A stretch of DNA of 10,636 nt from assembly GCA_937892815.1 (NCBI GenBank), contig CALBHZ010000157.1, positions 1-10,636 of the forward strand, given 5' to 3'. Under the pieces are notes generated by a model, which had not been told where the DNA came from, did no database searches, and worked only from the letters and a program-made list of their open reading frames with translations. Both the position numbers and the translations under genes were made by a program. This DNA is from an uncultured archaeon. GTDB taxonomy: Archaea; Thermoproteota; Nitrososphaeria; Conexivisphaerales; CALBHZ01. Below are positions 7,718 through 9,947 of the stretch, piece after piece (the stretch's first letter is position 1; each line of letters begins with the position of its first letter).

Positions 7718-8503
7718 ATGGAGGCAGAAATAGGAATTATAGGCGGATCTGGCATATATTCTCCGGATTTTATAAAGGACGTAAAGGAGGTTAAGGTATA
7801 CACGCCGTTCGGCGAACCATCGGATTTTATACTCGTAGGGTATGTCGGGGATAGAAAAGTAGCGTTCATACCAAGACATGGGAGAGGTCATAGGATTCCT
7901 CCACATATGATAAACTATAGAGCGAATATATGGGCCTTAAAGGAGTTGGGGGTAAAGAGGATACTAGCTCCATCTGCCGTGGGAAGCCTACAAGAAGAAA
8001 TTAAGCCTGGGGATTTCGTCATACCGGATCAGTTTATCGATATGACGAAAAGGAGATGTTACACCTTTTACGATGGTGGAAAGGTGGCACATGCTAGCTT
8101 AGCAGATCCTTTTTGCCCTGAACTGAGGAAGGTGCTAATTGAAGGTTGTAAGGCTCTAGGTTTATCTCACCATGAAGCAGGAACCTACGTATGTATAGAA
8201 GGGCCTAGGTTTTCAACTAGAGCTGAATCCGCCTTGTTTAGATCTTGGGGAGCACATATTATAGGAATGACGTTAGTACCGGAAGTGAATTTAGCGAGGG
8301 AAGCTGAAATCTGCTACGTTACCATCGCGATGGTAACGGATTACGACGTATGGGCGGAAAGGCCTGTAACGGCAAGCGAGGTAGCTAAGACTATGGCGGA
8401 GAACGTAGAGAAGGTAAGGAAGTTGTTGGAGTTCGTTATCCCAAGAATTCCTGAAGAGAGGAAGTGTCCATGTAAGGAGGCGTTGAAGGATGCGGTTATT
8501 TGA
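7718..8503 (+). CDS. mtnP: S-methyl-5'-thioadenosine phosphorylase, MTAP II type
   Basis: Phosphorolytic enzyme that splits methylthioadenosine (by-product of polyamine synthesis and SAM use) into adenine and methylthioribose-1-phosphate for methionine and purine salvage. At 261 residues it has the family's normal length. Visible: phosphate loop [10 protein letters not shown] (5-14), [11 protein letters not shown] (53-63) and [18 protein letters not shown] (84-91), [10 protein letters not shown] (161-170), [13 protein letters not shown] (184-196; Met184 contacts the ribose in the family) and MVTDYD (205-210), whose Asp residues bind the purine. The tail [12 protein letters not shown] carries a CxC at 250/252, as in Sulfolobus MTAP II, where cysteines form stabilising disulfides. 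Seven cysteines in total (114, 133, 144, 159, 199, 250, 252) suggest the same here. The 3' end overlaps the convergent ribophorin-like gene by 8 bases. Confidence 0.93.
8317..8338. repeat. 22-base perfect palindrome inside the phosphorylase gene
   Basis: Half-site CGTTACCATC followed by GC and the exact complement. It lies over the codons of the conserved VTIAMVT purine-binding segment, so protein constraint may explain much of it. Confidence 0.9.
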
Positions 8504-9947
8504 CCTCTAGAGATCTAACCCTGTCCGATATCTCCTTTATCTTGTTTATAGCCTTCTTCTGTTTAATTTTATTCGCAGTGTAAAGCTCTCTAATCTGTCT
8601 GGCCAATTTAATTGCCCGATCGAGCTCCTGATTTACTTCTACAAGCTTTTCGACTAACTCTTTCTTCCCTTCTTTATTAAGCTTATTCTTCAACTTCATT
8701 ATCTCAGAGTTAATCTTAGATCTTTGCGTATCTAAACGCCTCCTCTCCTTTTCAAAGTCTTCCTTCTCTATCGTTTTAGATATACTTCGTTCGTATAGCC
8801 TTAGGTAATCTAGAACTACATCCCTCTTTGAAAGCAAGGGCTCAAACCTTTCTCTCTTCTTATAGGAGGCTATGTAAAGGATAGCGAAAAGGACTATTGC
8901 AAAGACTATTAGGTCAATATACGTTGTTATAGGTGTATACACGGGAAGCGTTTGAACGTTTAAGACTGGCAAAAACGTAGAATTGCTTACAGTAACTGGC
9001 TTTACATTAGGAGCACGAACTTCAGCACTTCTAATTAGCCCCGGAATGGGAGGTGGACATGGGTTAGGGAGTTCCTTTATGAGATACTTTAGCTCTATGA
9101 AGTTCATGCCCTTAACTAAGGGGTATGGAAGAGATAAAAGGGAAGAGCGGATTGTCGTATAGACGTAATCTGAAATTCCCACCTTAACTCTAATCATCTC
9201 GCTTATTGAAAGGTAGTCTGCTACTTTAACAGAATAGAGGAACTTATCGTCGTATAGCTTAATCCAAATCTTATCCTCAATTAATATTTCATCATCCTTT
9301 TTTTGAACATACTCTCTTTGAAGCTTAGTAATTTCCAGATTTGAGAAAGCATAAGGGAAATCTGGGGATATATCTAAAGCAATTATCTTAGGATACGTTA
9401 TATTTCCGTCAGCTCTATACTTCCACGTCCTAGGTTCCACTTCTACAAAACCCTCCCTTTCCAGTTTAGTCATGATTTTAACACCCTTTGGTATAGTTAA
9501 AGTAGACTCTACATGAGTTAGATTCACGCCTTTTACATCTGGAATTATGGTATAATTTGCTACGTAATCCACGCCTTTAAATTTGAAAAGGGGGAATAGC
9601 CAAATATTCACCTTAAGATCTAGAGCACCTTTCCCTATCTCGAGATTAGTAAAAACGAACCTGAGTTGATTTTCATCTCTTATGAGGCTTACGTGAACAT
9701 TACTGCTATAATTAACTAAGCAAGAAGCGTAGTTAGGATAAATTACCTCCACTTTATCTAAAGTTACAGGATTAGAGGCGCTTAAGCTCAGAGTAAAATT
9801 GAGTTTAACGAGTCCGTAGCTTTCAATAGTAAAGTTTTGTTGAAAGGAAGGAGTTAAGGATTGAGCATTTGACGGGGTGGATAGGGGGGAAGCGATTAAG
9901 AGTAAAAATAGAAGTAATGGGATCGTTTTTTGAGTAAACCTATACAT
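8496..9947 (-). CDS. Ribophorin I (Ost1)-like secreted membrane-anchored protein
   Basis: 483 residues: signal peptide (about 1-28, ending SNA), ectodomain of two beta-rich parts (about 35-195 and 197-300), Pro-rich linker, one membrane helix (about 343-361), then a cytosolic basic helical/coiled-coil tail (365-483). This order matches eukaryotic ribophorin I, the Ost1 subunit of oligosaccharyltransferase, though it is about 100 residues shorter. Compared from memory, the tail [20 protein letters not shown] (405-424), then KEG and the following helices, resemble human ribophorin I [19 protein letters not shown], then KTEG. The segment [16 protein letters not shown] with [12 protein letters not shown] resembles the start of its second beta domain. 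The ectodomain has seven N-x-S/T sequons (N38, 50, 79, 131, 142, 182, 322); the tail has none. Otherwise it would be an uncharacterised archaeal envelope protein. ATG at 9947; apparently leaderless. Confidence 0.6.

Follow-up and report, generated by a model that had tools for sequence, protein, structure and literature searches.

The minus-strand gene at positions 8496 to 9947 of the window, by which we mean the whole analysed stretch of archaeal DNA of 10,636 nucleotides, encodes a protein of 483 amino acids, and sequence comparison supports this gene as a real, divergent homologue, from a non-Asgard archaeon, of ribophorin I (Ost1), an accessory subunit of the eukaryotic complex by which sugars are attached to proteins. 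The gene was probably inherited vertically, and we infer that its product most likely acts as an accessory subunit of an oligosaccharyltransferase (OST) of the plasma membrane. That the protein is an archaeal relative of ribophorin I outside the Asgard group had been put forward earlier from the letters of the DNA and the open reading frames alone. This original prediction is now supported through family profiles, namely the alignments A1–A3 and A5 and an alignment of 509 columns obtained with hhalign.

The reading frame, whose coordinates include the stop codon, starts with ATG and is intact over 483 codons; its final 8 bases at the 3′ end overlap the end of a convergent plus-strand gene for S-methyl-5′-thioadenosine phosphorylase (MTAP, 7718–8503). 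A type I layout is recognizable. About residues 1–28 (9864–9947) form a putative signal peptide, which was called by eye and from the hydrophobic N-terminus (19-residue hydropathy peak of 1.66 at residue 8). Residues 29–338 (8934–9863) would make up an extracytoplasmic ectodomain with seven N-x-S/T sequons. According to the alignments it consists of two parts, and the second begins near I206–R211 (ITKLQR...DEILIED) and is shorter than that of the relatives. The only strong membrane segment lies at about residues 342–360 (8868–8924; hydropathy maximum 2.45). It is followed by a predicted helical cytosolic tail, residues 366–483 (8499–8852, like the other segments on the minus strand), which corresponds, by way of the family profile, to the tail with which Ost1 binds the ribosome and which is basic itself, with 33 lysines and arginines against 22 aspartates and glutamates in the 118 amino acids after residue 365. 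In 32 members of the family (alignment A6, see below), the strongest late membrane segment by hydropathy is followed by 123–160 residues. The original prediction had described the signal peptide, the ectodomain, the single membrane helix and the basic tail, and hydropathy, with the signal peptide judged by eye, bears this layout out. The two parts which it saw in the ectodomain follow from the alignment only, and the spacing of tail residues which it named as shared with human ribophorin I is correct by eye, 9 of 26 residues being identical.

Taken singly, the window protein does not find ribophorin. It gives no match to PF04597 (Ribophorin_I) at E ≤ 10, and searches of Pfam, NCBIfam and the PDB returned weak unrelated matches only, mostly to the helical tail, with ribophorin absent from all three (in NCBIfam two weak unrelated families are hit); by themselves these matches were counted neither for nor against the homology. 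The genome of the window is a draft of 1.35 Mb in 304 contigs, 86.74% complete and 3.43% contaminated. When this genome and 60 relatives were searched with the window protein, faint kin turned up in 4 of the 60 (best E values from 2.5e-6 to 0.0021), and a search of genome contigs with the single protein found no relatives. The comparisons that follow use profiles of the family. A1, A2 and A3 are alignments of 5, 30 and 19 sequences from the class Nitrososphaeria, all including the window protein. A5 holds 25 members from other classes of the phylum and neither the window protein nor any class sequence; it was drawn from 28 extracted proteins, of which L056, L059 and L063 were left out. A6 is a mixed alignment of 32 rows, and the ectodomain-only profiles A10 (mixed) and A11 (class-only) each contain 15 of the 30 class rows. 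The start codon of a relative was taken as the first possible one.

Against a profile of the 29 other class members, with itself excluded, the window protein scores 102.1 bits, while the best of 5000 segment-wise shuffles reaches 14.9 bits. Its ectodomain alone scores 51.1 bits and its tail alone 44.9 bits with the same profile. Judged by sequence, the window protein is surely a member of the class family.

We searched 177,635 PDB sequences with these profiles. With A1 the first two ranks are ribophorin I, the human protein at E = 1.1e-4, and with A2 and A3 human ribophorin I (RPN1) is ranked first at 7.6e-6 and 1.8e-6, the next matches being at 0.0036 and 0.0054. In all three cases the segment with which the second ectodomain part of RPN1 begins aligns ahead of the tail, in the right order, but weakly (2.1, 6.7 and 7.3 bits for A1, A2 and A3). 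The value obtained with A1 proves little alone, since the bias toward coiled coils is real: A6 matches a designed coiled coil at 9.3e-5 and CdvA at 1.7e-4. One could argue that the gene codes for some generic surface protein whose tail is a coiled coil and that the resemblance to ribophorin I is due to chance and helix bias. The weak unrelated matches of the single sequence point in this direction, as do the coiled coils reached with A6 and the class-only ectodomain profile A11, which does not reach Ost1 in the PDB. The profiles that include or consist of members from the other classes speak against it. A5 matches human RPN1 at 8.3e-21 over profile positions 147–571 of 579; for 8whn, the tail of Asgard Ost1, and for yeast Ost1 the values are 3.8e-19 and 4.7e-8, and its next match is at 0.026; the match to yeast Ost1 covers positions 12–423, so that the tail is not involved. 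The corresponding values for A6 are 7.4e-22, 7.2e-18 and 3.2e-6. Ectodomain-only A10 matches RPN1 at 3.1e-11 and its next match is at 1.0; yeast Ost1 is not among its matches. In addition, hhalign aligns the class family without the window protein (29 rows) to A5 over 509 columns with a probability of 100, and the class ectodomains (14 rows) to the ectodomains of the other classes (17 rows) with an E value of 5.2e-34 and a score of 252, where 50 column-shuffled versions score at most 17.3 and a reversed version 15.9. The results with A5, A10 and the ectodomains largely contradict a generic surface protein, which we regard as very improbable.

The window protein itself scores 25.4 bits with A5 as a whole and 17.2 bits with its ectodomain, which reaches 21.5 bits against the ectodomain profile of the other classes. 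Its tail alone gives 10.8 bits with A5, below the best of 5000 shuffles (11.2 bits). Because A11 misses Ost1, 8whn is not among the PDB matches of the class-only profiles A1, A2 and A3, and the tail stays below its best shuffle, the link between the window protein and Ost1 runs through the family. By way of the family members, homology to Ost1 over the ectodomain, the membrane helix and the tail holds at the level of profiles. A ribophorin profile search had been proposed along with the original prediction as a check; it is negative for the single sequence with PF04597 and positive for the family profiles.

The window protein, a homologue of Ost1 on this evidence, shares with human RPN1 (6s7o/8b6l) the signal peptide, the two-part ectodomain, the one membrane helix and the helical cytosolic tail, and matching segments occur in the same order in eukaryotic Ost1 (PF04597; yeast 6c26) and in the family of the window. 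It differs in length (483 against 607 amino acids in human RPN1), since both the second ectodomain part and the tail are shorter, it lies below direct detection by Pfam, and it would reside in the archaeal plasma membrane instead of the endoplasmic reticulum. For yeast Ost1 two luminal beta-sheet domains that resemble each other are described, and this subunit is reported to bind peptides only when they are glycosylated (PMC7226087). The tails of human Ost1 and of the Ost1 of the Asgard archaeon Ca. Prometheoarchaeum syntrophicum MK-D1 are described as four-helix bundles which bind the ribosome, and the tail of the window protein is basic like these (PMC11417166). The MK-D1 protein (WP_147663064.1, tail structure 8WHN) is likewise an archaeal membrane protein with the layout of the window protein; as given above, its tail is matched by A5 and A6 and is missing among the matches of the class-only profiles.

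The family is broad. A1 detects it in 45 of the 300 class genomes (20 of 69 genera) and A2 in 111 of the 398 genomes of the phylum (62 of 164 genera). When named genomes were scanned, 28 loci of the family came up, 11 of them with proteins identical to class members of the set. The taxonomic families f7 and f10, to which a large share of the class genomes belongs, contain none of the 45 carriers. Pfam does not see the class branch: among its 45 carriers there is no PF04597 match at E ≤ 0.001. Outside the class it does better. Among the A5 members 17 of 25 match PF04597 at E ≤ 1, the best at 1e-13, and L044 scores 42.3 bits where the cut-off is 25; by NCBIfam the same 25 proteins match 21 families at E ≤ 0.01, none of them ribophorin. 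PF04597 is found in 56 of the 398 phylum genomes, in 48 of them over the cut-off, and in none of 14 controls. In the 54 of these genomes that lie outside the class its match overlaps an A2 match in 46 and lies within 1.8 kb of one in 2, the A2 match being absent in 6. These PF04597-positive proteins of the other classes are homologous to the class family over the 509 columns mentioned, and they form a separate and well supported side of the tree.

Within the class PF04597 matches in 4 of 300 genomes, all from f7. The weak f7 matches L008 (from G031), L009 and L010 were rejected as relatives; by eye they look like nucleotide-cyclase-like proteins. They match the N-terminal part of PF04597 at 6.6e-4 to 0.005 and are false friends for annotators of this class. 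L008 is one of the four matches just mentioned, and the other three are in G094, G128 (over the cut-off) and G138.

A tree was built from 43 rows, all of them from non-Asgard archaea: the 30 class sequences and 13 taken from the 25 in A5. The members from other classes form one side (99/98), and the families f2, f5, f11 and f16 each come out as a single clade (100/100). Within its own order the window protein groups with f2 at 91/90, which is below the starred level, and its end branch of 2.08 is long compared with the median of 0.47, so that its placement is unsure. The tree agrees with the taxonomy and is compatible with vertical descent, the lineage of the window having changed fast. The long branch could also be taken as a sign that the gene is a decaying copy or a piece of another organism binned into the draft, for which the fragmentation and the 3.43% contamination of the draft and some odd genes that are cut short near the left edge of the window could be cited as well. 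The intact frame of 483 codons with its whole architecture and the grouping with its own order argue otherwise, as does the neighbouring MTAP gene, which matches PRK08564, an archaeal type of MTAP, over the cut-off. We think it hardly credible that the gene is decayed or foreign.

For a functional Ost1 homologue we suggest the following mode of action. The signal peptide would send the ectodomain outside the cell. The two ectodomain parts would lie beside the catalytic AglB/STT3 and handle the acceptor or freshly glycosylated chains, with the single helix as membrane anchor. The basic helical tail would attach to the large subunit of the ribosome close to SecYEG, and by this contact glycosylation would be coupled to translocation. 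By analogy the archaeal family would then supply AglB with an accessory subunit that links glycosylation at the plasma membrane to the ribosome and the translocon; the fold, the partnership with AglB and the binding of the ribosome are predicted for the window protein in the same way.

The original prediction had named AglB/STT3 in the same genome as a point to be checked. In the 86.7%-complete draft it was found neither with PF02516 nor with an AglB of family f5 as query, a difference from MK-D1, which has STT3 and also TRAP subunits (PMC11417166). The protein may therefore be thought of as an Ost1 homologue by descent which is no longer, or never was, an OST subunit and which, independently of AglB, tethers ribosomes to SecYEG or keeps hold of secreted chains. 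The two failed queries for STT3 favour such a role, as do the shortened second ectodomain part together with the long branch, and the neighbours of the Ost1-like gene in relatives, among which glycosylation genes were not seen (a few loci by eye, 9 proteins by Pfam). However, a draft at this level of completeness and in 304 contigs may simply lack the gene, and STT3 is present in 245 of 300 class genomes, including 36 of the 45 class carriers and all four carriers of f2, the closest kin. Carriers do not have STT3 more often than the other genomes (36 of 45 against 209 of 255, p = 0.83), though STT3 is too common for a fair test. A role apart from OST appears unlikely to us, and we prefer the accessory subunit.

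The AglB proteins of two f5 carriers (L107:755–2854 and L108:643–2751, both minus strand) keep the motif WWDYGYW and have a double sequon, DNATINTTK and DNATLNTTK, respectively, which resembles the AglB double sequon noted for Asgard and TACK archaea in PMC8993221. Ost3/6 (PF04756) was dropped as a candidate. Its listed matches are mostly in the first 105 profile positions, a thioredoxin fold, and 8 of 14 control genomes have it too.

Further genes share the window with the Ost1-like gene. From the left end these are a MacB/LolD-like ABC ATPase (2–694, minus), an efflux adaptor fragment (CzcB/RND_mfp) of 101 amino acids (701–1006, minus), a PF00953 glycosyltransferase reading frame (1019–1900, plus), a GFO/IDH/MocA oxidoreductase (2138–3073, minus), an open reading frame without Pfam match (3114–4190, minus), MgtE (4960–6321, minus) and an amidohydrolase (6367–7641, minus). 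Genes for tRNA-Met and tRNA-Gln are also present; within 10271–10636 the minus-strand reading frame 10304–10636 runs antisense into the tRNA-Met gene (it ends ...GPVGLEPTTDRL), so that its last residues are probably spurious. Two of these genes are related to sugars and lie at least 5.4 kb from the Ost1-like gene. The reading frame at 1019–1900 had been taken for an AglH/ALG7-like enzyme. It does belong to the PF00953 glycosyltransferases (2.4e-25), its N-terminal part seemingly missing, but its best NCBIfam match is MraY_archaea with 43.3 bits at a cut-off of 450, so that AglH/ALG7 itself is at most a putative assignment. The oxidoreductase near it is possibly a sugar-nucleotide gene, as its nearest NCBIfam family is the archaeal UDP-N-acetylglucosamine 3-dehydrogenase (242 bits, cut-off 450). 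Near 1.0–1.1 kb, where the efflux adaptor fragment abuts the PF00953 reading frame, there may be an assembly joint, or the genes may be decayed.

Other genes lie beside or near the Ost1-like gene in the relatives. The glycine cleavage P-protein was identified by Pfam at L072:3122–5976 and L074:3079–4554 (both minus strand) and by eye in G007, a genome of the order of the window (L002:2497–3855, plus strand); a reason in glycosylation is not obvious. L072:1691–2749 (minus strand) carries a tubulin/FtsZ-type GTPase domain (PF00091, 1.3e-20), and each of the 15 loci compared, out of 28, has a homologue of this protein close to the Ost1-like gene. In three f2 genomes (L002, L004, L005) the adjoining gene codes, by eye, for an Lrp/AsnC-type regulator.

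According to Lombard 2016 (PMC4973528) promising prokaryotic Ost1 was not found, even with HMMs. Ribophorin has since been noted in some Asgard archaea (PMC8993221), and Ost1 together with other OST subunits is described for them in PMC10307638, in agreement with the ribophorin-like Asgard proteins to which the original prediction referred. Its starting point, that archaeal OST is AglB alone, is outdated for Asgard archaea by the same paper and for TACK archaea by one sentence of PMC11417166 (2024), where OST1 and OST3/6 are said to be present in eukaryotes, TACK and Asgard archaea. Glycoproteomics of two Nitrososphaerota species from 2025 names AglB and, in the available sections of the paper, never Ost1 (PMC12153357), and among the matches listed in the open-licence literature no title or abstract start deals with Ost1 in Nitrososphaeria. 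Ours is thus not the first report of Ost1 in TACK archaea; what we add is the branch invisible to Pfam and the breadth of the family.

What is of interest is less the copy in the window than this breadth and the age which the family seems to have. Accounts of archaeal N-glycosylation often give AglB as the OST, and here 111 of the 398 genomes examined of a non-Asgard phylum carry an Ost1 family. With the class branch that Pfam misses included, the age of an OST subunit becomes testable, and many non-Asgard proteins are at hand for structures and ribosome-binding tests. Similar genes across non-Asgard archaea suggest that the subunit may be older than the eukaryotes. We give about even chances to a scenario in which the ancestor of the Thermoproteota (TACK) side of the archaea had Ost1 before Asgard archaea and eukaryotes split off from that side; the gene was then passed on mostly vertically, with a Nitrososphaeria branch that Pfam does not see and with losses in some large families. 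If this is true, the coupling of N-glycosylation to the ribosome by an OST of several subunits would be an ancient feature of archaea and not an invention of Asgard archaea or eukaryotes.
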